Positions 381 to 33,248 of a stretch of 44,389 bases of DNA are shown here, piece after piece. Source of the DNA: a virus. Location: the IMG/VR virus record IMGVR_UViG_3300031227_000102, positions 1 to 44,389 of that record; one strand, given 5' to 3'. Position 1 is the first letter of the stretch, and the number at the start of each line of letters is the position of its first letter. The notes beneath the pieces were generated by a model. It was not told the origin of the DNA, ran no database searches, and saw only the letters and a list, made by a program, of their open reading frames with translations. The position numbers were made by a program, and so were the translations under genes.

Positions 381-397
381 CTTTAAGCTCCTTCCTG

Positions 398-1360
398 CTA
401 GTCAGTAGAGGCGAGGATGTTAGTTTCGATCCCCATCTCAGCCACGGCGTTTGCAACGATGACCCCACGCTGATCCACGGTAAACGTTGCACCAGAAATT
501 GCGCCCGTGATATTTGCAGCGTCCACTCCGAGGAAGCAGAAAATGTCCGGGCCGATAACGCCAGTACTACCTGTGACCGAATCCTTGATCACCTGGACGT
601 TATCCGCGCCGACGGTATCGTCAACATTCCACAGAGTGCAGTCACGGACCTTGACAAGCGCCGACAGCGTGGTAACGAAGTGAATGTTTGCCTCGCTGAA
701 GTTGCCGTAGATCCAGCAGCCATGAACAGACAGGCCGTCCGCGCCTATCGCACTGACTGCGCTGACTGCTCCGTCACCGGGATTGGAGATCATTGCGCAT
801 CGACCAATCTCCAGGCGATCCGCTGCCGCGGTCGTGAGTACGAGCATGTCCGCAAACTTCGCGGCGTCAGCCTCACGAATCTCGCAGTCGAGGATCTTGC
901 AATCGGCTGCGCTTACTTCCAGAAGCCCGGTGCTGTTGTTCACGTCATTCAGGAACAACAGGTTTTCGATCACCGAGCTTGCCGCTGCGAGTTTGAAGTC
1001 CCCCGCAATTGCGGTACACGTAAAGGTCGGACGTGCGGCTCCTTCACCGACCCCGACTATCCTGACCCCTGCAATGTCCATGTCCACGGTGCTATCCAGG
1101 GCGAGGTTCTCGGCGTGTCCTGGCATGCAGAAGATCCGGTCCCCGTTGTTGGCCGTCACGATGGCATCGGTGAACGGCTCCACCAGTGTCAACTTCGGGG
1201 AATCTGGGTTGCGTCCAGTCCCCCCGCCGTCAGATCCCGAGCCGGAACCCGAATCGACATAGAACCGCTTGCCTGTTGACACCCCCATGTCAGAAATGAC
1301 CAACTGACTGGCGATGTTCTCAGACACAAGCGAAGAGCGTGATGCCTTAGCTGCTCCCAT
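398..1360 (-). CDS. Beta-helix-type structural protein, paralog 1
   Basis: A 320-residue protein. The N-terminal 120 residues contain a Gly/Ser-rich stretch after KRFYVDSG, then PFTDAIVTANNGDRIFCMPGHAENLALD and a DIAGVRIVGVGEGAARPTFT segment. The rest is a series of short beta-rich repeats (VIENLLFLND, CKILDCEIREAD, LSVHGCWIYGN, VKVRDCTLWN) with the spacing expected of a parallel beta-helix. It has no enzymatic motif that I recognise. It lies downstream of the capsid gene and next to a truncated paralog, so a virion surface or tail-associated role is likely but inferred. The start ATG is preceded by AGGAAAGGACAG. Confidence 0.75.
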   Translation of the reverse strand: MGAAKASRSSLVSENIASQLVISDMGVSTGKRFYVDSGSGSGSDGGGTGRNPDSPKLTLVEPFTDAIVTANNGDRIFCMPGHAENLALDSTVDMDIAGVRIVGVGEGAARPTFTCTAIAGDFKLAAASSVIENLLFLNDVNNSTGLLEVSAADCKILDCEIREADAAKFADMLVLTTAAADRLEIGRCAMISNPGDGAVSAVSAIGADGLSVHGCWIYGNFSEANIHFVTTLSALVKVRDCTLWNVDDTVGADNVQVIKDSVTGSTGVIGPDIFCFLGVDAANITGAISGATFTVDQRGVIVANAVAEMGIETNILASTD

Positions 1361-1382
1361 GTCTGTCCTTTCCTGAGTGAGG

Positions 1383-1431
1383 GGGGAGCCCTGCCATTGC
1401 CGTTAGGCTTAGTAGATGTGCGGGGCTCCCC
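1383..1431 (-). terminator. Intergenic inverted repeat, possible terminator or RNA-processing hairpin
   Basis: A perfect 9-bp inverted repeat, GGGGAGCCC (1383-1391) and GGGCTCCCC (1423-1431), with a 31-nt loop, lies between two structural genes. No T-tract follows, so an intrinsic terminator is not proven. The arm resembles that of the hairpin at 29925-29948. Confidence 0.4.
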
Positions 1432-1451
1432 TTCTCAATCATCCATTGTCC

Positions 1452-2048
1452 TTAGGTAGCGTTCGCCAAGCCCTGAGGCATGTCGTCGCCATCGGCCATG
1501 AACCTGGGTTCGCTGAGGATGGCGAGCACACAGCCATCGGTAGGATCGTCCGTGGTCTCAGTGACCCGCAGGCGCAACCCGGCGAGCGTTCCGGTCGGGT
1601 TGGTCTTGATGTATGCCGCTTCCGCTTCAGCCACATCGACTTCGATGGGGATGATCCGGTTGCTGTCCCCGGTGATGGTGAGGATACCGGAGGTGGTTGC
1701 CGTCGCCCTGGTGCCGAGACGCTCAACGGCCTGGAGCCCGCCTGTGACCGTGTCGCCGGCCGGGTGATACTCGAAGGCCAGCTCCGTGTGGATGGTCGGA
1801 CTGTAGAGGGCATCGCAGCCTTCCAAGGTAATGGTGTGGTCGGCCGCGGAGGTAGCGCCGTACACAACCAGGAAGGTGACGTGCCTGTAGTTACGGACAT
1901 CCACGATGCCGGTAACCGGGCTTGCCCCACCAACCGCGCCTCTGGGGCCTGACGATCCAAACGTCACACCATCGGCGCCGAACCTATCGGCGTCGGGCGG
2001 GAGAACGTTCAGCACTCGGTGAGCTTGTACAAACTTCATGCTACTCAT
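1452..2048 (-). CDS. Hypothetical head-proximal structural protein
   Basis: A 198-residue protein starting MSSMKFVQAHRVLNVLPPDA, with a GAAGGAGGAAAGTA ribosome binding site. The sequence is beta-rich with a central segment VRNYRHVTFLVVYGATSAADHTITLEGCDAL, which resembles small phage proteins encoded just downstream of major capsid genes. The second ATG (MKFVQ) is also possible. There is no signal peptide, membrane segment or catalytic motif. A structural role such as decoration or head completion is inferred from its position between the capsid gene and the beta-helix genes. Confidence 0.65.
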   Translation of the reverse strand: MSSMKFVQAHRVLNVLPPDADRFGADGVTFGSSGPRGAVGGASPVTGIVDVRNYRHVTFLVVYGATSAADHTITLEGCDALYSPTIHTELAFEYHPAGDTVTGGLQAVERLGTRATATTSGILTITGDSNRIIPIEVDVAEAEAAYIKTNPTGTLAGLRLRVTETTDDPTDGCVLAILSEPRFMADGDDMPQGLANAT

Positions 2049-2071
2049 TACTTTCCTCCTTCTCTTTCTAG

Positions 2072-2088
2072 GCGCCCAACTTAGGCGC
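2072..2088 (-). terminator. Small hairpin overlapping the capsid gene stop
   Basis: GCGCC (2072-2076 on the plus strand) and GGCGC (2084-2088) form a 5-bp stem with a 7-nt loop across the stop codon of the major capsid gene. It could attenuate transcription or protect the capsid mRNA end. It has no clear T-tract. Confidence 0.3.
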
Positions 2089-3433
2089 GAGTAGCAAGGG
2101 TGACGAACGGCGACAGGGTGTCACCATTCTTGGGGGTGAGCGGTGCACGCCACCACGGCTGACCGTCGTTCCGCAGGGTGAAGCGGAAGGCGACCTCGCC
2201 ATAGTCGAATCTCAGGTGGATGCTCGTCGCGCTCTGGAGACCCTCGCCGGACCGCTCGCCAATCAGGTACTGCGAGAAATCGTAGAGGCCAACGTCACCC
2301 TCTGTACCGAGGGTCGGAACCTGTTCGGTGAGCAGCAACGGACGACCGAGCAGCGTGCCGTTCGGCGCGCCAGCCAGCCCCGTGTTGTTGCCCGGGAGCC
2401 ACAGGGGAACGCCACCGGTGCCAACGCTCAGCACCATGGTCGCGAGCTGCGGGAAGGTATTGTGATTGGCAACCCACACAGCGTTATTCTTGCCCCATGC
2501 GCGGGAGTACATCTTGAGGATGTTCTGGCTGTTGATGGTTTCCTTGACCTGTGCGGCTTCCTTGGGCACGGCAATCTTGCTGTTGTTCGCCGCGTTCTGG
2601 ATGCCCAACGGCTTGCCTGCACCGTTTGCAGTCAGGAACTCCTCGTCTTCCTTGTAGGCGATCGCCTGGGGGAAGAGATTCATCACGAGCGCTTCGACGC
2701 TGATCGGACTGTCCTGCAGCATCTCGTCGGTGACGTAGCAAAGCCCGGTCAGCTTGGTGAGCTTCAGACCGATCTTGCGGAACGCCGGCTGGCTTCCGGT
2801 AACCTGGCCGCCCTCACCGGTGCGGAACACCTGCACTCCACCGAACAGTGTGGAGCTTCGATCCTCGTCCTTCATTGCAGGGATCTCAATGTGCGAGCTG
2901 GACATGGGAATGACGCGAGCCCGCGGACGAACGATGCTGGCCTCGAGCGCGATATTCAGCAGCTCGGTACTCTGCTCAGTGGGAATCAGGTAGCCTCCCT
3001 CACTGTCGACCAGCTCGTTCATTCCCGAGGCAGCCTTGGTGGTGAGCATGTCGCTGTAGCGCGTCAGAATGTGTCCGGCGCTCTGGCCGTTCTTGCCAGC
3101 CTTGTAAACTTCGTATGCGAAGTGCCCGAAGTTTTTGAAGCCACCGGTCGACATCAGCTTCTCGCCTTCGCTCTGGCCGACCGTGATCTTGACACCCTTC
3201 ACCGAGGCCGAAGCCTTGGAGAGGGCTTCAGCTGCACCGGCCGACGCTGCTTCCGCCGCCACCTTGCGCAACTGCTCCTCGATCCCCTTTCGGAATTCGG
3301 CAGTGGCGGTGTCTTCGACGACCTCTGCGACCACCCCACCCATCAGGAGACCCTTAGCCTCGTCGTCTTCCAGTTCAATCACCGCGTTGATGGCGTAGTT
3401 CTGGAAGGCTTTGAGGACTCTGTAGGTCTTCAT
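2081..3433 (-). CDS. Major capsid protein, HK97 fold, with N-terminal added domain
   Basis: A 450-residue capsid subunit. The HK97-type signature starts near residue 130: SEGGYLIPTEQSTELLNIALEASIVRPRARVIPM, then YKEDEEFLTANGAGKPLGIQN, LPGNNTGLAG, LGRPLLLTE and YGEVAFRFTLRNDGQPWW. Before it, residues 1-40 (MKTYRVLKAFQNYAINAVIE, then LEDDEAKGLLMGGVVAEVV) look like the small 'vlkpf...Gd.iel.deeAk.Li..G.v' domain found as a separate phage head protein. Residues 45-115 are helical and charged, like the delta/scaffold region that the prohead protease removes. The next upstream gene is that protease, which fits. The start ATG has AAAGGAG 9 nt upstream. Confidence 0.93.
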   Translation of the reverse strand: MKTYRVLKAFQNYAINAVIELEDDEAKGLLMGGVVAEVVEDTATAEFRKGIEEQLRKVAAEAASAGAAEALSKASASVKGVKITVGQSEGEKLMSTGGFKNFGHFAYEVYKAGKNGQSAGHILTRYSDMLTTKAASGMNELVDSEGGYLIPTEQSTELLNIALEASIVRPRARVIPMSSSHIEIPAMKDEDRSSTLFGGVQVFRTGEGGQVTGSQPAFRKIGLKLTKLTGLCYVTDEMLQDSPISVEALVMNLFPQAIAYKEDEEFLTANGAGKPLGIQNAANNSKIAVPKEAAQVKETINSQNILKMYSRAWGKNNAVWVANHNTFPQLATMVLSVGTGGVPLWLPGNNTGLAGAPNGTLLGRPLLLTEQVPTLGTEGDVGLYDFSQYLIGERSGEGLQSATSIHLRFDYGEVAFRFTLRNDGQPWWRAPLTPKNGDTLSPFVTLATRA

Positions 3434-3503
3434 CCTAACATTCTCCTTTCCTGTTACAGTCCGGCAGGCGGTGTTGCGGTTGACTCTCCGGGCTGCGTCC
3501 GCT

Positions 3504-3520
3504 GCGCTCTCTCAAAGCGC
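3504..3520 (-). terminator. Hairpin between prohead protease and capsid genes
   Basis: GCGCT (3504-3508) and AGCGC (3516-3520) form a short stem with a 7-nt loop in the 117-bp gap between the protease stop and the capsid start. This is the widest gap in the head module, so the hairpin may tune the relative expression of the two genes. This is a weak inference. Confidence 0.3.
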
Positions 3521-3550
3521 TCCACGTCTGCATGCCTTGAGCCATCCCCA

Positions 3551-4801
3551 CTAGACTCTTCCCTGCATCTTTTCCACCTGCTCCCGCGCAATGCTGGGCA
3601 GGTCGTTCGCTACGGTATCGACGGCCGACATGGCCGCCTTTTTCATTTCGTCGTTGATCTGTTCCGGCAGTCGGTAACTCAACGAATCTTCTTCCGCGAT
3701 CACCCTGCGCGTGCCAGGGCCAGGACGATCCACTCTGCGCATCTCGCCCCCGCACTTCGGGCACTTGATGTCCTTGCAGTGCTTCTTGCTGCTCATCTTG
3801 TGGTTGCATTTGATACAGGAGCAGGCGTACTTGGTAGCCTTCCCCTCTTCAGGGTCGCCCGTATCCACATCCGTCGGTTCGTCGGTGTTTTCGGGCTCTA
3901 CAGCCGGATCTGAGACAGGGGCTACCGGGGCGACAGGTGCAACAAGTTCTACCGGCACATCCGGCGCGACGGGTTCGGCGGGTTCGGCGGGCTCAACAGG
4001 CGCCACAAGTGCCGGGGGTGTGGCGGGTACGACGGGCGGAACATCTTCGGGTATCTTCATGGCTGGTCCTTCCGGTATTACTAACCCCATTTCGTCCAGG
4101 ATGATTTGCGGTACGCTCAACCCCTTCGCTCGCATCTTCCCCACCTGCACAGTGACGGCATCGGGGTTGGATTGGATAGGAGCAACCGCGTACTCGAGCC
4201 CCACCCAGTTGCGGATGATGTAACCAACCTCCGCGAACCTCGGATCGGCACGTACGTCGGCCTCCGTCGGGCGTCCCATCTTCGTAGGAATGAAGCCGAT
4301 GCTCTTGCCCTTCATCCCATCCTTGACAAATGCGTAGACTGCATCGGGGAACCAACTGCCGACCCAGTCGTCGGGCACGCCCTTGTAAATGGTCTTGGCC
4401 AGCCATCCGTTCATAGGCGTCTTCACGCGCTTCACCCATGCAGCTCTCCCCACCGGAAGCTCGTTGTACTTGTGTGCGAACGTAACCGGACCGCCCCCCT
4501 TCTGGAAGCTGGCCCAATCGGCGCCCTGAGGCAGCACCACTTCCTTGTCGCGGTCAACGGAGTCGGTGGTGATCAACGAAATGTCCGCTCTTTCCCCTTC
4601 CACCAATTCAAACTTCTCAGGGGTAGCCCTCACACGGATGATCCCGTTCTCGCCGCGCAGCTCGACCAACGACCGGCAGTCTTCGTCCAGGTTCTTCAGA
4701 ATCGCTTCAATGTCGGTCGCCACCTTCGAGTGCATGGGAAAGCCCAGCGGCCCTTCTGCGTCCCCATACATCTTCCTGATTTTGTCAACGCTTGCAGGCA
4801 T
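3551..4801 (-). CDS. Prohead protease (HK97/U35 type) with C-terminal zinc ribbon
   Basis: A 416-residue protein. Residues about 70-220 match the caudovirus prohead serine protease: SLITTDSVDRDKEVV, VTFAHKYNELPVGRA with the likely catalytic His110, then KDGMKGKSIGFIP with Ser167, and LEYAVAPIQSNPDA. It should cut scaffold and the capsid N-terminus inside the prohead. After about residue 250 it becomes unusual: a Pro/Ala/Val repeat linker (about 254-300), an acidic stretch, and a Cys cluster (C327, C329, C332, C347, C350 in CSCIKCNHK and CPKCGG) like a zinc ribbon, followed by a basic, helical tail. U35 proteases usually end soon after the catalytic domain, so this tail may act as the scaffold. 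It sits directly before the capsid gene. Confidence 0.9.
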   Translation of the reverse strand: MPASVDKIRKMYGDAEGPLGFPMHSKVATDIEAILKNLDEDCRSLVELRGENGIIRVRATPEKFELVEGERADISLITTDSVDRDKEVVLPQGADWASFQKGGGPVTFAHKYNELPVGRAAWVKRVKTPMNGWLAKTIYKGVPDDWVGSWFPDAVYAFVKDGMKGKSIGFIPTKMGRPTEADVRADPRFAEVGYIIRNWVGLEYAVAPIQSNPDAVTVQVGKMRAKGLSVPQIILDEMGLVIPEGPAMKIPEDVPPVVPATPPALVAPVEPAEPAEPVAPDVPVELVAPVAPVAPVSDPAVEPENTDEPTDVDTGDPEEGKATKYACSCIKCNHKMSSKKHCKDIKCPKCGGEMRRVDRPGPGTRRVIAEEDSLSYRLPEQINDEMKKAAMSAVDTVANDLPSIAREQVEKMQGRV

Positions 4802-4804
4802 CGC

Positions 4805-5233
4805 CTACTCCTTTGCTTTCCCGGGCCTCTTCTTGGCCTTCCTCGTCCCGTATGGTTTCGCCTCCGGCTGATCGCTCTTTGCATTCTTGGCGGGGTCTGT
4901 GGGGTCGTCCTTCGACAGCCGCACCATTGCCGACATCACTGTGCCCGAGTCCTTCAGGGCGTCGGGCATGGGGGCTGTTGCAAACTGCGGAGGCCAGACG
5001 CAGGTGAGCTTTTTGATGTTATGCACTCCCTCCCCGCGGACCTTCTTGGCTGGAGCGCTGCGTACCTCCCCACGTACCTGCCAGTTTGCCTTGGCGTGCA
5101 TCACTACGGTCAGCTCGTCTCCCGGATGCATGGCGCAGATGGCCCGCACCACGTCGGCATCAACGGGTACACCACCGCTAAGCACCTTGTCGAATCCTTC
5201 GTCATACTCCACTCGCGTTGATCTTGATCCCAT
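4805..5233 (-). CDS. Hypothetical protein in head module
   Basis: A 142-residue protein. The N-terminal 90 residues are compact (VEYDEGFDKVLSGGVPVDAD, DELTVVMHAKANWQVRGEVR, IKKLTCVWPPQF) and the C-terminus is a charged Lys-rich tail (KPYGTRKAKKRPGKAKE). I recognise no family. It lies 3 nt before the protease gene and 9 nt after the Mu-F-like gene, so it belongs to the head assembly operon. Confidence 0.7.
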   Translation of the reverse strand: MGSRSTRVEYDEGFDKVLSGGVPVDADVVRAICAMHPGDELTVVMHAKANWQVRGEVRSAPAKKVRGEGVHNIKKLTCVWPPQFATAPMPDALKDSGTVMSAMVRLSKDDPTDPAKNAKSDQPEAKPYGTRKAKKRPGKAKE

Positions 5234-5242
5234 CGCAATCTC

Positions 5243-6196
5243 CTAGCCAATGATGGACGGCGTTGATGGCTTCCGCTCACCAACGAGCACCTCTACCATG
5301 GTGCATTCACAGTTGGGGTGGTACGTGGGAAGGTTACGACCTCCCCTCCTGGCGTTGGGTTTGTTGTATTTGCCGATGCCTCTCAGCGCCGACTTCATCT
5401 TGACGAATGGGTACGCGCTGGCCATGTTCAGGCAAAGGATGCAAGCGTCGGGTGACAGCAGTGGACGGAACCCCTTCACCACCTCCGACGCGGCACCGGC
5501 AAGGACCTGCCCATCGTGCAGTGCCATACTGTATTCGGTACGAGCAATTTGCTTGGCTCTCCAAAGTTCACCATGGTTGAAGATCTTGGCTATACGCTTG
5601 GTCAGCTCGCGGGGACCCTCGCCCCTACCAATGATTCCGGCGATCATCTCCTTCTTCAGCTTGACAACCGCCGCATTGATCTGCATCGAGGTTGTGGCTG
5701 AGGTCGTAGCTGAGAGCTGCATGGCCTGCAGATGAATAGCTTTGATCAACTGCGCATTGCTGCGACTCCAGTTCACCTCACCCGCACCGATGCGAATCAG
5801 CGTCTGCTCCCCACCCTTCAGCATCGCAATCTCCAGGAGAGGTTCTATACGCTGTGCGTGACCGACGCGCTTCGAGAAGGAACCGATGTTAATGGGCTCC
5901 TTACCTATGTTGATGCCCTTCTGTGACAGGGTAAACGCTTCGCTGCCGAAGGTCACCCCGTAGTAGGCGAGCGTATAGGCGTGCTGCTCCCTGAAGAACA
6001 CCTTGAGCATGTCGATTGCCTGCCACACATCCGTACCAGAAACCGGCTGGGTCCATCCCGGGGATGCCGGGCTCTTCTTATGCACCTCGCCGCACGTCTC
6101 GCAGTAGTCCATGGATGCGGGCAGCTCGTCCTGCAGTACAGGAGTGTGGGACTTGCAGGAGTGCACCAGCGTGCGGTGCTCGGCGCAGAGCGGCAT
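5243..6196 (-). CDS. Minor head protein, Mu F / SPP1 gp7-like head morphogenesis protein
   Basis: A 317-residue protein. Its C-terminal half has the features of the phage head morphogenesis (Mu F) family: the helical segment GPRELTKRIAKIFNHGELWRAKQIARTE, then YSMALHDGQVL, SPDACILCLNMASAYPF and the terminal motif LPTYHPNCECTMVEV with paired Cys. The N-terminus has a small Cys/His cluster (LCAEH, HSCKSH, DYCETCGEVH) that may bind zinc, which is unusual for the family. The start overlaps the portal stop as TGATG, the usual portal-minor head coupling. The protein is expected to sit inside the capsid near the portal. Confidence 0.85.
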   Translation of the reverse strand: MPLCAEHRTLVHSCKSHTPVLQDELPASMDYCETCGEVHKKSPASPGWTQPVSGTDVWQAIDMLKVFFREQHAYTLAYYGVTFGSEAFTLSQKGINIGKEPINIGSFSKRVGHAQRIEPLLEIAMLKGGEQTLIRIGAGEVNWSRSNAQLIKAIHLQAMQLSATTSATTSMQINAAVVKLKKEMIAGIIGRGEGPRELTKRIAKIFNHGELWRAKQIARTEYSMALHDGQVLAGAASEVVKGFRPLLSPDACILCLNMASAYPFVKMKSALRGIGKYNKPNARRGGRNLPTYHPNCECTMVEVLVGERKPSTPSIIG

Positions 6197-7782
6197 CAGT
6201 TTATCAATCCCATCTTCTGCCAGTACTTCACAATGCCGGCCACCTTGGGCACAGCTATCAAAAGCTCTTCAGCTATCTTCATGTTGTCAACGCCCTCGGG
6301 ATTCTGGCGGATGAAGATGAGCACAGCGCGTTTCTCGTCCTCGGTTCCCTCCTCGTCCTCCTCGTCCTCCTTGGGTGGTGTGGTGCCGGGCTTAGGGGGT
6401 CCGCTGATGCTACCGTCCTCGTTGACCTGTCCGATGGGCGGGGAGGGGTCGGGCCTGTTGCTGGGCTGTGATACGCTGGTAGGTAACCACGGCTCCCTGC
6501 CCCACTCGACCTCGTTCTTGTTATCCGCCAGCCGCTCTTCGTTGATTGTAGTGTGGCCGGTCTTGAGATTGCTCTCGCGGACCTTGATCTTGCGCTCGAC
6601 GTCCTCCGGCACCGGATCATCGCTGACAACAAACAGCCGGTCGGAAAACATCGTTGTAAGCTTCTGGTTGATCCGCTCGTCCTGGCGCTCAAGCCGCGGC
6701 CATATTGCCTGCCGCCCGTGCTGCGCCTGCGCTGCATTCAGCTCTGCACGTGACTTCATGCTGTCCATCAATGCAGGGGGTACACCGTATGCGTTCAGCA
6801 CCTCGGTCTTGGTGACGCCGAAGCGTGCGAGCATTTCCATGTCTCGCGCCTTGAATGACAGCGGCTTCATCTCAAGGGCGCTTTCCCAAACGACTACACC
6901 GCCCTCCCCACCCTGGCGGAACTTGCGCTTCAGCCACGCCTCCAGCCGTGCGGCCTGCGAGGTGGTGAGGGAGCTGCCTTCGTCCTTGGGGCTGATGATG
7001 GCGTCCGGTCTCGCTCTGTTGTCCATCGACGATGCCACGAACGAATGGTCCTTGTTTATAATGTTAATAGCCTCATACGCTGCACGTGCAGGGGACCATC
7101 CCGCGCCGTACGGATCAATTAGATTGGGGAACCGGAAGTCTACGATCTCCTCTGCCGGGTACGTCTCCCGCTCCTTGTCCTTGCCGTACGTGAATGCCAT
7201 GGGTATGTTAGTCTCAGTGTCGCGGACTACCGTGATATGTTGCGGCTGCAATAGCCAAATCTTGGTGGGGACGTTCATCGCCCCTCGCTCTATACGCCAG
7301 TACGCCTCGCCCGCCAGCTCCTGGTACAGGTCTGTCAGCTCGCGCAATGAGTACTGGCCGAAGTACGACGTGCGCCCCTCTATGAGGTCGAGCATTGGGT
7401 GCTCCAAGACCTCCTTGATCTCTGCGTCCCCCGCTGCCGCCTTGTACCGACCCCGCACCCACTTCTCCCGCCTTGCGTCCAGCTTACGGTACCGCCAATA
7501 CTTCGGCTCAGGGGCTCCCTTAGGCGTTTGCACGTATAAACGCATGGGTGTCTTCGCTACGGCCCCTGCGTTCAGTGTCGCCGCCGCATACGCCACACCA
7601 CGATACTCGTTGATGAGCATCTGCTTGGTCGGCGACTTCTGGGTGCGGAATTGGTCAGCAAACGTCGGAGCGCCCTGATACTCAACAGCCATAAACGCCT
7701 TCTGCTCCTGAGTGAATTCGCGGGACTGCTGCAGCGTCTTCATCAGCTCGCGCTTGCGCCGCTCTCTTATCGCGTTAGGCAT
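6196..7782 (-). CDS. Portal protein, HK97 type
   Basis: A 528-residue portal subunit, which forms the dodecameric DNA entry ring of the head. Diagnostic segments are EYRGVAYAAATLNAGAVAK followed by TPMRLYV, ELTDLYQELAGEAYWRIERG, YPAEEIVDFRFPNLIDPYGAGWSPARAAYE, MDNRARPDAIISPK, LSFKARDMEMLARFGVTKTEVLNAYGVPPALM, and a clip/barrel segment ending WPRLERQDERINQKL. The C-terminus is a Pro- and acid-rich extension followed by a winged-helix-like end (RQNPEGVDNMKIAEELLIAV). It lies between a small basic protein and the Mu-F-like gene, the standard order. The first ATG (MPNAIRERRKREL) is used. Confidence 0.92.
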   Translation of the reverse strand: MPNAIRERRKRELMKTLQQSREFTQEQKAFMAVEYQGAPTFADQFRTQKSPTKQMLINEYRGVAYAAATLNAGAVAKTPMRLYVQTPKGAPEPKYWRYRKLDARREKWVRGRYKAAAGDAEIKEVLEHPMLDLIEGRTSYFGQYSLRELTDLYQELAGEAYWRIERGAMNVPTKIWLLQPQHITVVRDTETNIPMAFTYGKDKERETYPAEEIVDFRFPNLIDPYGAGWSPARAAYEAINIINKDHSFVASSMDNRARPDAIISPKDEGSSLTTSQAARLEAWLKRKFRQGGEGGVVVWESALEMKPLSFKARDMEMLARFGVTKTEVLNAYGVPPALMDSMKSRAELNAAQAQHGRQAIWPRLERQDERINQKLTTMFSDRLFVVSDDPVPEDVERKIKVRESNLKTGHTTINEERLADNKNEVEWGREPWLPTSVSQPSNRPDPSPPIGQVNEDGSISGPPKPGTTPPKEDEEDEEGTEDEKRAVLIFIRQNPEGVDNMKIAEELLIAVPKVAGIVKYWQKMGLIN

Positions 7783-8049
7783 TCAATCCTCACCGATGTT
7801 CCCAGACCAAACTGCCGGGTTCTCGACGTCCAACCAAGGCTCCAGTCCGTCGATTTTGGCAGGCTCCTTCTCAGGAGCGTCTTTGAATCGCTCATGTGGT
7901 TGGGTGTGCGCACGTGCTTCCACCTTTCGGTCGTACTCGTCTCTCGCCGCTACCCTTGCAGCCTCCTCCGCAGTACGCGCCTTGGGGAGACTCCGCCGCC
8001 TCCGTGGCTTGGGCTTGGACCCTCTCGGAGGTGGTAGTTCTTTAGCCAT
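7783..8049 (-). CDS. Small basic hypothetical protein
   Basis: An 88-residue protein with a Pro/Arg/Lys-rich N-terminus (KELPPPRGSKPKPRRRRSL) and a charged helical middle (RTAEEAARVAARDEYDRKVE). Its stop abuts the portal start, so the two are probably translated together. No family is recognised. Confidence 0.65.
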   Translation of the reverse strand: MAKELPPPRGSKPKPRRRRSLPKARTAEEAARVAARDEYDRKVEARAHTQPHERFKDAPEKEPAKIDGLEPWLDVENPAVWSGNIGED

Positions 8050-8095
8050 CGTGTCTCCTAGAGGTGCAAGGGACGAGGCGCGGAGGACTGATCGC

Positions 8096-8113
8096 CCCGC
8101 CCCTTGCGGCGGG
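8096..8113 (-). terminator. GC-rich hairpin after the zinc-finger gene
   Basis: CCCGCC (8096-8101) and GGCGGG (8108-8113) form a 6-bp GC stem with a 6-nt loop just after the stop of the 8116-8391 gene. It is a candidate transcription attenuator upstream of the portal genes. There is no T-tract. Confidence 0.4.
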
Positions 8114-8115
8114 TG

Positions 8116-8391
8116 TTATTCCTTATCCAAAGCTTTCTTGACTGCGCTGACCGCATCGAAGCAGCCCTTGCAGAGGCCGCGCTTGTCGCTCTTGTCGCTG
8201 TTGTTGCGGAGGAAGCCGCAGGTGTTGCATTCGAACTTGCCAGGGGGGGTTCCGTTGGTCACCGGCACGTGCACTGCGGTCTCTTCCTTGGCGGGGTCCT
8301 TGGGCTTCGACTCCTTGGGCTTCGACTCCCGGTCCTCCTTGCTGCGGCTCTTCGGTGCTCCCTTGTCCCTCGCGTACTTCGGTGCAGCCAT
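8116..8391 (-). CDS. Small zinc-finger protein with charged N-terminus
   Basis: A 91-residue protein. Residues 1-45 are Lys/Glu/Ser/Pro-rich and likely disordered. A four-Cys cluster follows, FECNTCGF and GLCKGCFD, spaced like a treble-clef or zinc-ribbon site. It is one of a run of small Cys-rich proteins between the terminase and portal genes. The function is unknown. Confidence 0.65.
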   Translation of the reverse strand: MAAPKYARDKGAPKSRSKEDRESKPKESKPKDPAKEETAVHVPVTNGTPPGKFECNTCGFLRNNSDKSDKRGLCKGCFDAVSAVKKALDKE

Positions 8392-8392
8392 G

Positions 8393-8791
8393 CTACTTCT
8401 CCTTCTTGCTCGCGGTCTCTGCAGCCATGTACGTGCGTCCGCAGGACGGGCACGTTCTGACCACCTTAAGATTCTCCAACGGCTGCGAATCCCCCCTCAG
8501 GTACGCAACCAGTATATTGATACAGTCCCCAACGCCGATGCCGATCAAATTATCCAGCGCCTGCGCCGCCTTGCGTATGGTGATCGTCTCCTTGCTCGAA
8601 TCCTTCGCCAGGCACTTACCACACGTTACCGACGTAACCTCCACCGGCTCCCTGCACGTGTCACACGGCAGCACCGCGGAGTTGTATTTGGTACGCCCCT
8701 CGCGCAGCTTAGCTATGTGCTCCTCCGGGGTGTTCACCTGGGCTACCACCGGGGCTACCACTGGGGTTTCTTTCGCGGTCTTCTTAGCCAT
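8393..8791 (-). CDS. Zinc-binding hypothetical protein with two Cys clusters
   Basis: A 132-residue protein. The first cluster is LPCDTCREPVEVTSVTCGKCLA, the second starts VRTCPSCGRTYMAAE near the C-terminus. A helical segment (ETITIRKAAQALDNLIGIGVGDCINILVAYL) lies between them. The two Cys-x2-Cys pairs suggest one rubredoxin-like and one half zinc site. It overlaps the upstream gene by a few bases. Confidence 0.65.
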   Translation of the reverse strand: MAKKTAKETPVVAPVVAQVNTPEEHIAKLREGRTKYNSAVLPCDTCREPVEVTSVTCGKCLAKDSSKETITIRKAAQALDNLIGIGVGDCINILVAYLRGDSQPLENLKVVRTCPSCGRTYMAAETASKKEK

Positions 8792-9035
8792 CGCTCATTC
8801 CCTCCGCCATTTGCTCCAGTCGTTCGCCTATCTGTCTATGTGCCACCTGCATTGCCTTGATCCTGCACGACGGACACAGGTCGTTGACCGTGGTGTCGTT
8901 GTCAAACAGGATGCGCAAGCTCAGCTCCACGTGGCCGTACAACGCGGTCGTCTTCATGTGCATATTGACCTCGCTCTCGTCCACCGGCATGATGTTCTTG
9001 CAATCGTCACAGCGGGTGACCGTCTCCTGGCTCAC
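8784..9035 (-). CDS. Zinc-binding hypothetical protein
   Basis: I choose the GTG at 9033-9035 because it overlaps the GroES-like stop as GTGA and has GAGGA 7 nt upstream. The ORF extends farther, but only inside that gene. The product is about 83 residues with two Cys pairs, TRCDDCKNI and LCPSCRIKA, separated by about 40 residues, then a helical tail (MQVAHRQIGERLEQMAEGM). The arrangement is like a split zinc ribbon. The function is unknown. Confidence 0.6.
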   Translation of the reverse strand: MSQETVTRCDDCKNIMPVDESEVNMHMKTTALYGHVELSLRILFDNDTTVNDLCPSCRIKAMQVAHRQIGERLEQMAEGMSDG

Positions 9036-9319
9036 GCCACAATCCTCGCCAGGATCTGATCCCTGGGAAGAAACACGCACCGCTCACCGTTGATTATGTA
9101 CTCATGCCCAGTAAACCAACGGTATACCACGCGGTCGCCGCGCTTCAGGTCTTCAACCTCCGGTCCGGTGAACGCCACAGTCCCCTTGACTGCATCGGCT
9201 CTGCGCTTCTCATCCACCGTCTTACGATTCATCGGCAGGTGTATGCTGCCCACCTTGTCAGCCATCGGGTCGCGTACAATCAGCACGTTGTCGTGTGTCG
9301 GTAGTAGTTGGATGGCCAT
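9032..9319 (-). CDS. GroES-like co-chaperonin 1
   Basis: A 95-residue protein matching the Cpn10/GroES fold: it opens LLPTHDNVLIVRDPMADKVG, has a mobile-loop-sized insertion (GSIHLPMNRKTVDEKRR), then AVKGTVAFTGPEVEDLKRGDRVVY and ends HEYIINGERCVFLPRDQILARI. This mirrors GroES 'i.pl.DrVlvk', 'G.vvavG', 'vk.GD.Vlf' and 'gey...e.dIla'. GroES caps the GroEL folding chamber, and phage versions such as T4 gp31 and RB49 CocO help fold the capsid protein. The start overlaps the upstream stop as TAATG. No GroEL is visible. A second GroES-like gene lies about 600 bp upstream. Confidence 0.8.
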   Translation of the reverse strand: MAIQLLPTHDNVLIVRDPMADKVGSIHLPMNRKTVDEKRRADAVKGTVAFTGPEVEDLKRGDRVVYRWFTGHEYIINGERCVFLPRDQILARIVA

Positions 9320-9600
9320 TACTTTTTGCCCCCTGCCTCGACATCTTCGACCACTTCACCCGCCAGTAAAGCGTTGAGTGCATCGCGCAGACGCAGTGCG
9401 TCCGGTCTCCGCACCTCCACCCAACGTTTCGCACCGGGCTCGGTGATCTTCAACCTGGCCTTCCCCTTAAACATGCCCAACGTCAGGAGCTCGGACTCCC
9501 CCTCGCTGGTCGCAAGGGTGAAGAGCACCATACCAATCGGCATTCCCTGCAAGCCGGCCAGCAGCTGGTCCCACGTCTTCGTATTGCTAGGCATCGACAT
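9319..9600 (-). CDS. Hypothetical protein between the two GroES-like genes
   Basis: A 93-residue protein with segments LLAGLQGMPIGMVLFTLATSEGESELL and MFKGKARLKITEPGAKRWVEV. It is beta-rich at first and has a helical end. No family is recognised. The start ATG overlaps the stop of the next gene upstream. Confidence 0.6.
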   Translation of the reverse strand: MSMPSNTKTWDQLLAGLQGMPIGMVLFTLATSEGESELLTLGMFKGKARLKITEPGAKRWVEVRRPDALRLRDALNALLAGEVVEDVEAGGKK

Positions 9601-9928
9601 CGATGATCACCAGCTCCTGCGTCAGCGACAGAGTACGAATTGTCTCCCATGCTCGGAGTATCGCATACAGTCCATTGACAGTCAGGTCGTGACTACAACA
9701 GTCAGCTTCTGCGAACGCCTGGGAGCACGTGTGGTAAATGTCCGTCTCGGGATAAAGCTTAGCGACCTCAGCAGGGCATACCGCGTCTACGTCCTTCGTC
9801 TCCTGTTGCCGTCTGAAGAACTCTGTGCAAGCAGGCATCCCTCCGAGGCGCTCCAGCGCCACTCGCTCCATGCAACACATTCCAGATGCATGGTGGTACA
9901 CACACTCACAGCATTTAGGATGTTGCAT
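9587..9928 (-). CDS. Cys/His-rich hypothetical protein
   Basis: The start is set at the ATG at 9926-9928, with GGAGG 6 nt upstream; the ATG at 9931 is the alternative. The longer open frame runs inside the GroES-like gene and is a shadow. The product (about 113 residues) begins with a dense metal-binding-like cluster, HPKCCECVYHHASGMCCMERV, followed by PACTEFF, VCPAEV, HTCSQAF and DCCSHDL. About ten Cys in 90 residues suggest one or two zinc sites. Confidence 0.65.
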   Translation of the reverse strand: MQHPKCCECVYHHASGMCCMERVALERLGGMPACTEFFRRQQETKDVDAVCPAEVAKLYPETDIYHTCSQAFAEADCCSHDLTVNGLYAILRAWETIRTLSLTQELVIIDVDA

Positions 9929-10289
9929 CATCGACCTCCTCCAGCAATGCGACCACCTCTTCGTCCTTGAGGATGACGTAGTGAGCGCCATCAACCTCCA
10001 GGTCGTGGCCGGCGTACTTATCGAACAGCACGCGGTCGTCAACGTTGAAGTCAGTCTTGAAGGCGTGGACGATCTGATTGACTTGATCAGGCTCCAGCGT
10101 ATCCAGTACCATCGTCGTCTTCACTTCCATCGGCAGGTCAGGCACGCGCGGCACGGCCACTACTGTGCCCTTGTTGACCTTCTTCTCCTGCACCGCCTCA
10201 GGGATGACGATACCGCCATCAGTTATCTCCTCGCCTTTGTCACACAGTACGAGTATGCGCCCTGGTGTGGGGGTTATGAGCGTGCTCAC
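9915..10289 (-). CDS. GroES-like co-chaperonin 2
   Basis: A 124-residue protein. TPTPGRILVLCDKGEEITDG followed by GIVIPEAVQEKKVNKGTVVAV matches the GroES start, hydrophobic mobile loop tip (GGIVIPE) and 'G.VvaV' strand; VDDRVLFDKYAGHDLEVDGA and YVILKDEEVVALLEEV match the C-terminal half. This one has the better GroEL-contact-like loop. An insertion of about 30 residues (PDLPMEVKTTMVLDTLEPDQ and following) lies in the roof region. The likely role is to team with host GroEL during capsid folding. It starts with GTG, overlapping the upstream stop as TAGTG. Confidence 0.85.
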   Translation of the reverse strand: MSTLITPTPGRILVLCDKGEEITDGGIVIPEAVQEKKVNKGTVVAVPRVPDLPMEVKTTMVLDTLEPDQVNQIVHAFKTDFNVDDRVLFDKYAGHDLEVDGAHYVILKDEEVVALLEEVDDATS

Positions 10290-10696
10290 TACCCACCCAC
10301 CGGTTTGTTGATGTACATCGTGTGCCCCGCTTCGATGGAGACAACGCTCGGACCCATGCCACCACCACCCACCAGCGCGATCTCCACGCGACGGGCGCCC
10401 CTGTTGGTGATCGTCTTCACGCCGGGTACTCCGCTCTCGAGGACCTCGATTTTAGGCGCAGGTGCACCAGTACCAAGACCAGTGATGGTCGCCGGGCTTG
10501 TGTTGCTGTACGTCACCGTGGAGTCAAGCGGCTGCATCTCATGCCCATTCCAAAAGCCCACCGTCAGCTTGCCGCTGCGCATCCTGTCCGGCTGCCCCGC
10601 TACGTTAAACGCAAGCTGCAGCCCCCTCCTGGGCGTGACCGCGGCGTGCGCCGTTTCCTTCACTGCTCTGATCAACTCCAGCAGTCGTTCTCTCAT
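10289..10696 (-). CDS. Hypothetical beta-rich protein
   Basis: A 135-residue protein. A helical N-terminus (RERLLELIRAVKETAH) is followed by beta-rich segments: KLTVGFWNGHEMQPLDSTVTYSN and RRVEIALVGGGGMGPSVVSI, then a terminal HTMYINKPVGG. It may be a virion protein, but no family is recognised. The start overlaps the upstream stop as ATGA. Confidence 0.6.
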   Translation of the reverse strand: MRERLLELIRAVKETAHAAVTPRRGLQLAFNVAGQPDRMRSGKLTVGFWNGHEMQPLDSTVTYSNTSPATITGLGTGAPAPKIEVLESGVPGVKTITNRGARRVEIALVGGGGMGPSVVSIEAGHTMYINKPVGG

Positions 10697-10920
10697 GCTA
10701 CACCCTCCTCCTTCGCCATTGCCATTACCATTTCCGCCTCGCCCCTAGCGCATCGGACCATCTCCTGTCTGATGGCTAATCGTCTAGCTGTGCTGTGGTG
10801 GTGTGTGTTGCTCTTCGCGTTGCTGGCGTTGTGCGCGCCGCACCGGCATGGCTTGATCCGTGCGCCTTCCTCAGCGCGCCGCGGGTTGCTCCTACCATCG
10901 CCGTACCCCTTGAGACTCAC
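10693..10920 (-). CDS. Small basic hypothetical protein
   Basis: About 75 residues, starting at a GTG (10918-10920) that overlaps the upstream stop as GTGA. It begins VSLKGYGDGRSNPRRAEEGA and has a CRCGAH motif, then a helical tail ending MVMAMAKEEGVA. It is supported by precise coupling at both ends (GTGA and ATGA). A longer frame to 11124 exists but is a shadow of the neighbouring gene. Confidence 0.5.
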   Translation of the reverse strand: MSLKGYGDGRSNPRRAEEGARIKPCRCGAHNASNAKSNTHHHSTARRLAIRQEMVRCARGEAEMVMAMAKEEGVA

Positions 10921-11165
10921 TTGCGCATGCCCTTCTCGAACCAACCGGGCAGGATCGTTTCTGGTGTGCGGTAGCTCCTGCCATCCTTGGCGCTGTTGTA
11001 CTCGTCGCTTACCTCGCGCAGGCGGGTATCTGTGGTCTCCCCTGTTGTACGCATTGCCTCGCGCACTACTCGCCGCAGTCTGCGGTTGGCTGTGCTCTTC
11101 CACCAGCTGTCGCTCTCGGCGCATGAATGCGCAAAGTACGTGGAGTGCTTACGGCTTCTGCTCAC
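10917..11165 (-). CDS. Small basic hypothetical protein
   Basis: An 82-residue protein starting at GTG with GGAG 5 nt upstream. The sequence (SRSRKHSTYFAHSCAES then WWKSTANRRLRRVVREAMRT) resembles small 'SRSR+H' phage proteins often found near packaging genes. It ends PGWFEKGMRK. The function is unknown. Confidence 0.6.
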   Translation of the reverse strand: MSRSRKHSTYFAHSCAESDSWWKSTANRRLRRVVREAMRTTGETTDTRLREVSDEYNSAKDGRSYRTPETILPGWFEKGMRK

Positions 11166-11208
11166 GGCTTCTCCAAACTATCCACGAGCTCCTGCTTACT
11201 CGACCGGC

Positions 11209-11460
11209 TCAACGCAAACCATTCTTGCGGTGGCGTGCCATCACCCGCCAAAGCACCCATCGATAATACAGCCGAGGGCATACCCATGAGAACACCGCGC
11301 CAGGAACCATCAACAGAGCAACGTACCAGGGCCGCAGCAGTATGCGCACGCCATCATCCAGAAACAACGTCCACCCCTTGCGGCTCCCACCGCCATAGCA
11401 CGTGACGTACTGCAAGCAGATGCGACCATGCAGAGCTTCCCATTTCACCAGGGTGTTCAC
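11209..11460 (-). CDS. Small membrane protein
   Basis: An 83-residue protein from a GTG that overlaps the terminase stop as GTGA. One membrane segment (WYVALLMVPGAVFSWV, residues about 45-60) is followed by a strongly basic end (RWVLWRVMARHRKNGLR), predicting a cytoplasmic C-terminus. It could have a lysis or envelope-related role, but nothing in the sequence proves this. Confidence 0.55.
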   Translation of the reverse strand: MNTLVKWEALHGRICLQYVTCYGGGSRKGWTLFLDDGVRILLRPWYVALLMVPGAVFSWVCPRLYYRWVLWRVMARHRKNGLR

Positions 11461-12683
11461 GCCGCCTCCACGAAGTCCATGAGCTTCTGCTTCTTCACGG
11501 CCGCACAGATGTACCGCAGTGCGGACATGGCGTGGTTGAATTTGTCTATTGGCTTTTCCTTTTCGTCGTCTGGGTTGTGGCAGTACACTGCGGCCTCTTC
11601 CTTTGTCTTGACGCACTGCTCGCTGACAAACAGCTGCCCCCTGGCGAGCATACCGTTGACCGCATCGATGCCGAAGAGGATCTTGTTGATAGCCTTCTTG
11701 GCTCCGATGTCGTACTTCCTCAAATCACGTATAGCCTCAGGGTCTTCCGGATCGCAGTAGAACACGATGTCCCCGTCCGGAAACTCCCCTAGTATCGTCT
11801 CAGCGTGCACCCCTATGGGCGTCTCGCTTGCATACTGCTCCCACCAAATGTATAGGACCGGATGTCCGCCCTCTGCGCGGTAGATCGTACCGGCCAGTGC
11901 ACAGAACGGATTGCGCCATCCGAAGTCGATCCCTCCGACGTTGTACCCGTCCGGTGGGTCTTGATGTGGGATGAAGCAATCGAGGAGGCCCGGGAATACC
12001 AGCCCCTCTGCTGCTACCCATAGCCCCTGCACGTATCGCTGGAGCGCCACCCCCTGGAAGGTGAGTAGGTCTGCGACGTACTCCTTGTCCAGGAAGAAAT
12101 TATCTTGGGTGCACGTGCTGATGGCCTTGCAGCCTAGCAACGTCGGCGCACCCTCCACCAGTCCAAAGCGCCTGGCAAGGAAATGGGTGGGGGGCCCAGG
12201 ATTGCAGGCCCCATATAGTTGGTTACGGAGGTTCGACACCTTGACGCGGATGCGACCTCGCAACGCTACCCAATCAGCTTCGTCCAGCTCCACACACTCG
12301 TCTACAGCCACACCGGTAGCTGGCGTCGATCCTACCTTGTCAGGATCGTCGATCCCGAAGTAGAGGATCTCCCCGCCGCCGTGTATCTGGATTACCTGTA
12401 AGCTCTTGTTATGTGAGTAGGTTCCGGGAGGGAGGACGGGCGGAATGTCACCGTCCCATTTGAGTAGGGTACGGAGGGTCGTGCGTTTGAGTGTTACGTT
12501 ATGCTTGCGGCACAGGAGCTCTACGGCTCCTGGTACCTGGGCACGTGTGACCAGCTTGTAGCACAGCGCTCTGGTCTTCCCTGCACCGAACGCCCCGGAG
12601 TACAACGTCTCACGAGACTCGCTCGCCATAAACTCGTACTGCTTAGGGAGCAGGCCGACGTCAACAACCTGAGTCATCGTCAT
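11457..12683 (-). CDS. terL: Terminase large subunit
   Basis: A 408-residue packaging motor. The ATPase domain has Walker A GAFGAGKT (residues 30-37), Walker B GVAVDE (124-129) and the coupling segment YGACNPGPP. The nuclease domain has GIDFGWRNP (catalytic Asp253), FYCDPEDPEAIRDL (Asp311) and DKFNHAMSALRY (Asp about 380), an RNase H-type three-acid site. It pumps DNA into proheads through the portal and cuts concatemers. The start (MTMTQ) lies inside the 3' end of the small subunit gene, a 23-nt overlap. It is at the short end of the usual range but all motifs are present. Confidence 0.93.
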   Translation of the reverse strand: MTMTQVVDVGLLPKQYEFMASESRETLYSGAFGAGKTRALCYKLVTRAQVPGAVELLCRKHNVTLKRTTLRTLLKWDGDIPPVLPPGTYSHNKSLQVIQIHGGGEILYFGIDDPDKVGSTPATGVAVDECVELDEADWVALRGRIRVKVSNLRNQLYGACNPGPPTHFLARRFGLVEGAPTLLGCKAISTCTQDNFFLDKEYVADLLTFQGVALQRYVQGLWVAAEGLVFPGLLDCFIPHQDPPDGYNVGGIDFGWRNPFCALAGTIYRAEGGHPVLYIWWEQYASETPIGVHAETILGEFPDGDIVFYCDPEDPEAIRDLRKYDIGAKKAINKILFGIDAVNGMLARGQLFVSEQCVKTKEEAAVYCHNPDDEKEKPIDKFNHAMSALRYICAAVKKQKLMDFVEAA

Positions 12684-13230
12684 CCTTATCCGGTGCGTCC
12701 TTGGGTGGGGCCTTGGCCTTATTGAATACGAACTGCACTGCCGGTGGGCCCGACACGCTCAGCTCATCTTTGACCTTACCCTCCAGCCGTTGCATTACTT
12801 CCTTGAAGATCGTGCCGTCCCCCATAGCCACCTCACACACCACGCTGGCAGCCAGTACGGCTCCGATGGTGGTCCTTGCTGGGTCGAGACCCAGTGCAAT
12901 GGCCTTAGCTTTGATCAGGGGGATACGATTCGCTGGCTCGGTGATCTGTAGCTTGAGTATCTTGCTGAGCGACCACGCAGCGCTGATCCGTTTCTTTGTG
13001 TTGCCTCCACCGGCACCTATAAACTTGCCGGCAGGTCCCTTCACCCATTGATACGGTTCTGCCATAGGGAACACCTTGCTCTTGCCGATTCCCTTAGCCG
13101 CGATCTTGGCCTTCTTCTTGCGCGCTACCTTCCGCTTCGCTCGGACGGTCAGCGGCTTGGTCGCATCGGATGCGACCGGCGTCTTCTTTTTCAACCGCTT
13201 CTTCGAACCAAGCTTTCTTCCAGGTGCCAA
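12661..13230 (-). CDS. terS: Probable terminase small subunit with basic N-terminus
   Basis: Up to 189 residues. Residues 1-55 are extremely Lys/Arg-rich (GRKLGSKKRLKKK, RAKRKVARKKKAKIAAKG). The rest is helical (KRISAAWSLSKILKLQITEP, RTTIGAVLAASVVCEVAMGD, IFKEVMQRLEGKVKDEL) and ends with an acidic tail DKDDDDSGC. The call rests on its position directly upstream of and overlapping terL, plus the helical core; no definite family motif is seen. The 5' end is uncertain: this frame opens with TTG, while an internal ATG (MAEPYQW, 13063) would remove the basic part. Confidence 0.55.
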   Translation of the reverse strand: MAPGRKLGSKKRLKKKTPVASDATKPLTVRAKRKVARKKKAKIAAKGIGKSKVFPMAEPYQWVKGPAGKFIGAGGGNTKKRISAAWSLSKILKLQITEPANRIPLIKAKAIALGLDPARTTIGAVLAASVVCEVAMGDGTIFKEVMQRLEGKVKDELSVSGPPAVQFVFNKAKAPPKDAPDKDDDDSGC

Positions 13231-13338
13231 CGCATTCCCGCCTCTCTACATCAATATATATCGGGTGTGCCGTGAGATACGTCCACCCCCTCACACATCA
13301 CCCTCTGCAACACGTCAGCTTAGCATCCGAATCCGACC

Positions 13339-13647
13339 CTATGAACCGGTCACTTCTTCATCGTCACCCGCCCCATCCACCACCTCATCCGGGTCCGGCA
13401 GCCAATGCTGATTCGCCTCACTCACCTTTCTCAGCACCCTCTTCGCATGCTGCATCCTCTGCTTCTTCCTCTTCACCATTTCGTAATCGGCCCTCGCCAC
13501 TACTCCGTACCTCGCATTGACCCTCCACATCCTCCCGCACTGCGAGCACTTCACCCACGGCCACACCTCCATCGGCACCCGATTCTTTTTGTGCCACCCC
13601 CCGCACGTCGGACACCGGTGCACGTAATGTACCCTGTCTCCACCCAT
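13339..13647 (-). CDS. Zinc-ribbon protein
   Basis: A 102-residue protein. A clear zinc ribbon lies in residues 9-42: HRCPTCGGWHKK and WVKCSQCGRMWRV. A basic helix follows (YEMVKRKKQRMQHAKRVLRKV) and then an acidic end. The ATG (13647) overlaps the stop of the methyltransferase remnant as TGATG, so it was probably translated together with that gene when it was intact. Confidence 0.7.
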   Translation of the reverse strand: MGGDRVHYVHRCPTCGGWHKKNRVPMEVWPWVKCSQCGRMWRVNARYGVVARADYEMVKRKKQRMQHAKRVLRKVSEANQHWLPDPDEVVDGAGDDEEVTGS

Positions 13648-13990
13648 CACTCTTTCCCTTTCTCACGCTCGACACTGATCCTTCGACGTCTCCACCACGC
13701 AGCTCTGATCCTCGCTATCTTTGCATATTCCTTATTCAAATCACACCCAAACCAATCCACCCCCTCCACCTCACAAGCACACGCAGCATCTGCTCTGCCA
13801 CGTCCTTTCCTGGGGGTAGGCTGTCCCACGCCTTTCCCATGAAGCCGAGTCCGTACGGTGGATCAGTAATGATTGCATCCACAAACGCTTCAGGCATCCC
13901 AGCCATCAGCTTGACACAATCCCCAACCTGAACTCGTCCCGTCTTAGGTCTTGTTTGCTTTGTTTTCTTGCGTATCTTGCGCACCGCCAT
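13647..13990 (-). pseudogene. DNA methyltransferase remnant (internal deletion and frameshift)
   Basis: The N-terminal frame (13736-13990) reads MAVRKIRKKTKQTRPKTG, then VQVGDCVKLMAGMPEAFVDAIITDPPYGLGFMGKAW, ending in junk and a stop. DPPYGLGFMG with the preceding DCVKLMAGMPE segment is motif IV of N6-adenine or N4-cytosine methyltransferases. A second frame overlapping its end (about 13647-13800) encodes EVEGVDWFGCDLNKEYAKIARIRAAWWRRR, which matches the C-terminal 'eG.dwiGiDlN.eY.eiA..R...w' end of the same family. The middle, with the target recognition region and the F-x-G-x-G SAM motif, is missing. The two frames meet around 13775-13790. The gene cannot be an active methylase. Confidence 0.7.
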
Positions 13991-14147
13991 CTCCCACCAT
14001 CTCCTCTATCGTCACAACAGCCCCACCCCATCCATCGTTGAACCCACGCCAGTACTCCCCACCCTTATCCCGTGCCGGACTCCTCAATCCCTCCAGGTCT
14101 ACATCCAACACCTCGCACACCCCACGCCGTATGACCAATACCTTCAT
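13944..14147 (-). CDS. Hypothetical protein
   Basis: A 67-residue protein, KVLVIRRGVCEVLDVDLEGL followed by a Gly/Trp-rich segment (EYWRGFNDGWGGAVV). Its last 15 codons overlap the methyltransferase remnant. No family is recognised. Confidence 0.5.
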   Translation of the reverse strand: MKVLVIRRGVCEVLDVDLEGLRSPARDKGGEYWRGFNDGWGGAVVTIEEMVGDGGAQDTQENKANKT

Positions 14148-33044: not shown

Positions 33045-33248
33045 CTCGTACACGGCTTTCCACTCCTCCCGCTCTTTGCGATACCCCTCCAAAATCTCAC
33101 GCCTCGTTTTAGTACTGGCGCCGTGCTTGCCATCCAGCTGTTCCTGTGTGCAACCTCTGAACAAGCTCTCCGCTCGCTCAAGGGCGTCGCTACGTGCAGC
33201 CTTCACGATACTCAACAGCTTCATCTTTACAACGTCCACCTTCGCCAT
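33027..33248 (-). CDS. Small helical protein
   Basis: A 73-residue helical protein from ATG 33248: MKLLSIVKAARSDALERAES then TKTRREILEGYRKEREEWKA. The start is shared with the UDG stop as TGATG in the repeated start module. Its 3' end lies in the 11-bp tandem repeat. No family is recognised. Confidence 0.55.
   Translation of the reverse strand: MAKVDVVKMKLLSIVKAARSDALERAESLFRGCTQEQLDGKHGASTKTRREILEGYRKEREEWKAVYEFVKSL

Follow-up and report, generated by a model that had tools for sequence, protein, structure and literature searches.

The window analysed here, the whole 44,389-base record of an uncultured tailed phage (IMG/VR IMGVR_UViG_3300031227_000102) in which terminal repeats are absent, carries two genes for Cpn10/GroES-type proteins, here called CpnA and CpnB. 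Both lie on the minus strand where the first-pass annotation had placed them, spanning about 1.3 kb of one operon, between the genes for the terminase large subunit (TerL) and the portal protein and upstream of the gene for the HK97-fold capsid protein. The packaging and head genes are the following.

11457-12683, minus strand: terminase large subunit, TerL (PF04466, phrog_2)
10917-11165, minus strand: 82-aa ORF, next after TerL in gene order
10289-10696, minus strand: 135-aa ORF, directly preceding CpnB
9915-10289, minus strand: CpnB, Cpn10/GroES-type, 124 aa, GTG start, enlarged roof (PF00166, AlphaFold2/Foldseek)
9587-9931, minus strand: Cys-rich ORF between CpnB and the 93-aa ORF
9319-9600, minus strand: 93-aa ORF, directly preceding CpnA
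9032-9319, minus strand: CpnA, Cpn10/GroES-type, 95 aa, ATG start, gp31-like layout (PF00166, AlphaFold2/Foldseek, orthologue in the related record L025)
between CpnA and the portal gene, minus strand: three small ORFs, then an 88-aa ORF
6196-7782, minus strand: portal protein (PF04860)
5243-6196, minus strand: minor-head-like protein, after the portal and followed by two unnamed ORFs
2081-3433, minus strand: major capsid protein, HK97-fold, 48.3 kDa, candidate chaperonin client (PF05065, phrog_10)

The GTG start of CpnB overlaps the stop of the preceding gene and the gene downstream of CpnA begins on the CpnA stop, as would be seen in a compact operon. The frames of CpnA and CpnB are uninterrupted, and their codon-position G+C is typical of genes. 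Promoter-like and terminator-like sites in positions 1-14000 stayed at the level of shuffled sequence (3 found vs a mean of 4.0, and 10 found vs a mean of 9.9, respectively). Small Cys-rich ORFs flank CpnA and CpnB (8116-9035 and 9587-9931, minus strand), with zinc-ribbon matches that were weak and below cut-off, or with none at all.

Cpn10 family and fold without a GroEL

GroES is the small lid protein that closes bacterial folding chambers, and phages with a single GroES-type lid are well known. CpnA (34 bits, E 3e-8) and CpnB (60.4 bits, E 1.8e-16, the higher-scoring of the pair) both exceeded the curated cut-off of the Pfam Cpn10 family (PF00166, 21.1 bits) and both matched PHROG 3188, 'co-chaperonin GroES' (E 7.3e-8 and 1.5e-11, respectively). 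Their sequence matches in the PDB were mostly GroES and Cpn10 chains, the best for CpnB being a Cpn20 chain of 7ekq. AlphaFold2 models, built with 41 sequences, reached a mean pLDDT of 80.4 for CpnA and 74.3 for CpnB, with a Cpn10 beta-barrel at high confidence and a disordered, low-confidence mobile loop in each, and the best Foldseek matches of both models were Cpn10s. These matches of sequence (Pfam, PHROG, PDB) and of fold rule out a chance match or misannotation.

An HMM search of the whole record identified CpnA and CpnB as its only Cpn10 genes. Cpn60/GroEL gave no PF00118 match anywhere in the record, which may be incomplete (control positive in 14 of 14 genomes), and the Cpn60 gene of a phage GroEL-GroES pair is thus lacking within it; since the record has no terminal repeat, a GroEL gene could lie beyond its ends. 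The first-pass annotation had described two divergent GroES-like genes in a head operon without a GroEL, had allowed that one of them might not have a Cpn10 fold, and had proposed a search for GroEL elsewhere in the genome. Its description is borne out by Pfam, PHROG, AlphaFold2/Foldseek and gene positions: both proteins pass the HMM cut-off, both model as Cpn10, and the GroEL search came back empty within the record. Use of host GroEL is the usual arrangement, because Cpn60 was absent from all 13 other Cpn10-bearing phage records, T4 included; there is none in the two-Cpn10 record G047, described below.

Loop, roof and charge of the two proteins

Lengths were measured with a ruler on an alignment, which took as loop the residues between the end of the first strand and the conserved Gly, and as roof those from this Gly on to the conserved Asp. 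The 92 sequences contained 74 distinct ones, of which 71 were counted, three fragments being left out (two L127 rows had been removed beforehand as copies of L078 rows). The commonest loop and roof lengths were 25 and 24 (25 and 23-24 in canonical GroES). CpnA measured 31/15 and its orthologue in the related record L025 measured 36/17, and these two alone among the 71 combined a loop of at least 30 with a roof of at most 17. CpnB measured 26/43, the largest roof of the 71 (the next was 29). The segments lie as follows.

9185-9277, minus strand: CpnA mobile-loop segment, residues 15-45, 31 aa (ruler; low pLDDT at 21-26 and 28-32)
9236-9244, minus strand: CpnA loop tip I-H-L, residues 26-28 (sequence comparison, 76 Cpn10s)
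9137-9181, minus strand: CpnA roof segment, 15 aa, hairpin missing (ruler; no hairpin strands at 52-62 in the model)
10170-10247, minus strand: CpnB mobile-loop segment, residues 15-40, ordinary length, tip G-G-I-V-I-P (ruler)
10038-10166, minus strand: CpnB roof segment, residues 42-84, 43 aa (ruler; helix 67-76)

The CpnB roof insert is modelled partly as a helix (67-76), with low to moderate confidence. CpnA and CpnB are opposite designs, not two similar copies.

For a GroEL cage remodelled by a phage, the textbook example is gp31 of T4, which brings its own lid and works with host GroEL. As a control on the ruler, gp31 (PDB 1g31, 2cgt), which shares the Cpn10 fold with CpnA, measured 30/17, and the Cpn10 of phage ct2os315 measured 30/16. 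The parallel with gp31 drawn by the first-pass annotation therefore holds for one of the two genes: the CpnA loop is about six residues longer than that of GroES (31 vs 25) and its roof hairpin is missing (15 vs 23-24), whereas the roof of CpnB (43) is changed in the opposite direction. For gp31 compared with GroES, the available text of PMC6318259 gives a loop of 22 vs 16 residues, an absence of roof loops and an 8% larger chamber. Structurally, 1g31 aligned to 92 of the 95 CpnA residues, the most of any Cpn10 listed, at 13% identity (Z 10.8, rmsd 2.9). Since canonical Cpn10s reach equal or higher Z scores against CpnA (up to 12.7, vs 10.8-10.9 for gp31), the likeness to gp31 is one of layout, not of overall closeness. 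CpnA also differs from gp31 in its I-H-L tip, in its place among the clustered head genes of a phage with an HK97 capsid and in having a second Cpn10 alongside.

The tip tripeptide of the GroES mobile loop is its GroEL-binding element. It reads IVI in CpnB and IHL in CpnA, and a non-hydrophobic middle residue occurred in two of 76 Cpn10s, CpnA and its L025 orthologue. These two, 51% identical overall, have IHLPxNRKTxDE in common, with 27% agreement at the third codon positions of residues 25-39; the excess of conservation in these residues over the rest of CpnA was not significant (P 0.053). A decayed copy is unsupported, the orthologue having the same tip and layout, and judged from the two sequences the IHL tip has more the look of a retained variant than of decay. 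The earlier statement that the CpnA tip is the weaker one stands as far as IHL vs IVI is concerned, and the histidine might weaken GroEL binding; it does not look like a sign of decay, since IHLP is identical in so diverged an orthologue. This polar residue, like the strong acidity and enlarged roof of CpnB, could also mean that one of the two proteins has left GroEL for another task, e.g. a structural or regulatory one in the head cluster. This is very unlikely in our view, as CpnB retains the GGIVIP tip and scores better against Cpn10 than CpnA does, and CpnA retains the I and L of the tip together with the gp31 layout.

The two proteins also occupy the extremes of charge, CpnA being the most basic (pI 8.9, net charge +2) and CpnB the most acidic (pI 4.3, net charge -14) of 76 Cpn10s. 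A gap as large was found in 2 of 2850 pairs, with CpnB at -14 in both, the rows being related and the contrast having been spotted post hoc. It resides mainly in the C-terminal part of CpnB, which holds half of the CpnB charge, and in the CpnA loop. The L025 orthologue of CpnA, seen without a CpnB, is near neutral (pI 5.5, net charge -2). Such a pattern, in genes 1.3 kb apart in the same operon, would suit mixed heptamers of CpnA and CpnB subunits, giving one asymmetric lid with a roof part open and part filled by CpnB; chloroplast Cpn10 and Cpn20, which form mixed rings according to the available text of PMC5780408, provide a precedent. Nevertheless, we consider mixed heptamers unlikely: the CpnA orthologue evidently works without CpnB in the L025 record (a fragment), the contrast is post hoc and confined largely to two regions, and the Cpn10 pair of G047 has an ordinary charge gap, matched by 541 of the 2850 pairs. 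A more specific version, in which the basic, roofless CpnA and the acidic, large-roofed CpnB pair by charge into an asymmetric GroEL cap for a particular head protein, is in our judgement doubtful and quite unlikely. The charge contrast leaves room for mixed rings and would be just as compatible with two separate cages whose caps differ in charge. The literature accessible to us yielded no viral mixed co-chaperonin ring. Among the 76, CpnA is followed in basicity by one of the G047 Cpn10s (pI 8.9).

Relatives of the phage and rarity of two Cpn10s

With the capsid gene as lead, we obtained 12 loci in the virus collection. L023 is near-identical to the record (3 mismatches in 9,765 bases) and ends before CpnB, and L006 is likewise near-identical (0 mismatches in 4,822 bases). 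L025, from a record of 17,964 bases, is a relative with identities of 71% (TerL), 63% (capsid) and 49% (portal), and carries one Cpn10, the CpnA orthologue. The interval between its TerL and CpnA genes holds an 86-aa ORF homologous to the 82-aa one, sequence that does not match, and a Cys-rich ORF, which adjoins CpnA there too. CpnB and its neighbours had no homologue in L025, a fragment, by blastp of all ORFs.

9319-10696, minus strand: stretch without L025 homologue, comprising CpnB, the 135-aa ORF, the Cys-rich ORF and the 93-aa ORF (blastp, gene order)

Since these genes are missing between matching flanks, CpnB lies in an insertion relative to L025, and the same order of the flanks argues against a chimeric assembly there; CpnB may possibly be located elsewhere in the L025 genome, L025 being a fragment. 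In L025, a segment between TerL and CpnA (2456-2620) has ends that resemble a tRNA by eye (GGTTCGAATCC), in which ARAGORN finds no tRNA.

A Cpn10 over the cut-off was present in one of the 12 related-capsid records, many of which are fragments, in none of 11 further records, mostly with a distant TerL and including L006, which stops short of the Cpn10 genes, and in none of six others, also mostly with a distant TerL. A single-protein scan of the virus collection revealed no relatives of CpnB, and no relative with a CpnB-like insertion was found in the virus collection or the phage database. The only CpnA match in the genome-collection scan, L041, was a long ORF of another kind and not a Cpn10. 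Phage-database matches of both proteins were weak; the one with annotated surroundings lay in bacterial-looking DNA with groL beside groS, and the others opened were unannotated records.

In a tree of 71 rows, from which gp31 was absent and which had many long branches, CpnA grouped with its L025 orthologue (100/99) and CpnB with the Cpn10s of Roseobacter phage CRP-902 and of ct2G2228 (97/89), CpnA and CpnB standing apart. A tree constraining the two together was not rejected (AU p 0.358); a separate origin of the two genes is favoured.

Two Cpn10s in one virus are rare and appear to have arisen more than once. A bacterial-type GroES query of the phage database matched 70 records, several of which look like bacterial contamination, and two phage Cpn10 queries matched 26 and 18 records, in every case at one place per record; ten phage records searched whole by HMM each contained exactly one Cpn10. 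We further found 80 Cpn10-bearing virus records with peptide patterns at the loop-end and roof-end sequences, and searched the 50 longest contigs whole; the patterns are canonical, and roofless or odd Cpn10s are therefore under-sampled in this survey. Two of the 50 (G047 and G048, probably one population because their scores are equal) contained two Cpn10s over the cut-off, and in one 363-kb record the second Cpn10 was below it. G047/G048 resembles the present record in its two Cpn10 genes and differs in its unrelated phage type and ordinary roofs (23 and 24 in G047): G047 is T4-like from its ORFs (terminase, RecA/UvsX-like and helicase-like, identified by eye rather than by HMM), has no blastp match to the record at E 1e-3, and carries its Cpn10 genes about 3.2 kb apart. 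Of these genes (L127 11321-11659 and 14849-15166), one lies by a terminase-like gene and the other by the RecA/UvsX-like gene. The first-pass annotation had called two copies unusual, which is right as to rarity and does not extend to uniqueness, given G047/G048. Opposite lid designs in one virus were found only in the present record among those surveyed. No report of a phage with two Cpn10s emerged from the literature accessible to us, a scope that most subscription journals fall outside.

The absence of the CpnB stretch at that place in L025 and the rarity of two Cpn10s (2 of 50 virus records, 0 of 10 phage records) would also be compatible with gene turnover, in which CpnB came with a small insertion, overlaps CpnA in function and is part of a redundant pair of which one member is being lost. 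Neither frame is disrupted, however, their codon-position G+C is as in genes, and loop, roof and charge differ in opposite directions, which does not suggest plain redundancy, so that we regard turnover as rather unlikely.

Proposed roles and comparison with known systems

The reading that we prefer, and to which we give about an even chance, is that CpnA and CpnB would be GroES-type lids acting on host GroEL during head assembly. CpnA would be the gp31-like lid of this lineage, whose longer loop and missing roof would make the cage taller and open at the top for a head protein, with the major capsid protein as a candidate. CpnB, not seen in the relative, would be a second lid whose GroEL-binding loop is ordinary and whose roof is enlarged and acidic; as a separate ring, it would cap the chamber for another client or at another stage. 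We infer for both the formation of heptamers, the use of host GroEL, their clients and the separate rather than mixed nature of the rings. Consistent with this reading are the family and fold assignments, the loop and roof lengths of CpnA (31/15, close to those of gp31) and CpnB (26/43), the position between TerL and portal, the lack of Cpn60 in the 13 other phage records, the fact that L025 has kept a CpnA orthologue while no CpnB was seen in it, and the grouping of CpnB with single head-operon Cpn10s (CRP-902, ct2G2228). Arguing against it, the 48.3 kDa capsid protein is not obviously oversized for a normal cage, 11 of the 12 related-capsid records (many fragments) lack a Cpn10 over the cut-off, the Z scores of CpnA to canonical Cpn10s equal or exceed that to gp31, the CpnA tip contains a His, and neither the virus collection nor the phage database yielded a relative sharing the CpnB insertion that would speak for selection on it.

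A close setting is that of six single-Cpn10 phages (Roseobacter phage CRP-902, ct2G2228, ct2os315, ctpbd312, Caulobacter phage RW and pelagiphage HTVC027P), which likewise have their Cpn10 in the portal-to-capsid cluster and no GroEL. Unlike the present record, they carry one Cpn10 per genome; roofs measure 24-28 aa in five of the six and a gp31-like 16 in ct2os315, and the CpnB roof insert (43) is longer and dissimilar. Likened by description, the Pseudoalteromonas siphovirus B8b also has a GroES, but a single one, a 125-aa ORF, is reported in the available text of PMC4294664, and GroES belongs to the core genome of HTVC023P-type pelagiphages (available text of PMC9599517). The chloroplast pair similarly places two different lid subunits in one compartment, as far as the text available on it goes; mixed rings are shown there and would be hypothetical in the phage, where neither protein consists of tandem double domains. 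Bdellovibrio also has two groES genes, the second expressed late, and a modified chaperonin complex for special clients has been proposed (available text of PMC3464611), but this is a bacterium with its own groEL and with the two genes at separate loci.

The arrangement is real and uncommon, and its parts are already known. A gp31-like lid and a large-roofed lid in one operon constitute a natural experiment on loop length, roof, charge and client choice, and the pair also bears on whether viral co-chaperonin rings can be mixed. Because CpnA and CpnB are small, the question is testable without culturing the phage.

Elsewhere in the record, consecutive genes encode FolE (GTP cyclohydrolase I, E 3e-70), QueC (E 6e-31) and a radical SAM protein (36367-38795, minus strand, with 33248-33889), accompanied by a uracil-DNA glycosylase; these 7-deazaguanine pathway genes may point to modification of the phage DNA. 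A von Willebrand factor A protein (phrog_24053, E 8.9e-65, unknown function) adjoins a DUF6744 protein (41962-44329, minus strand).
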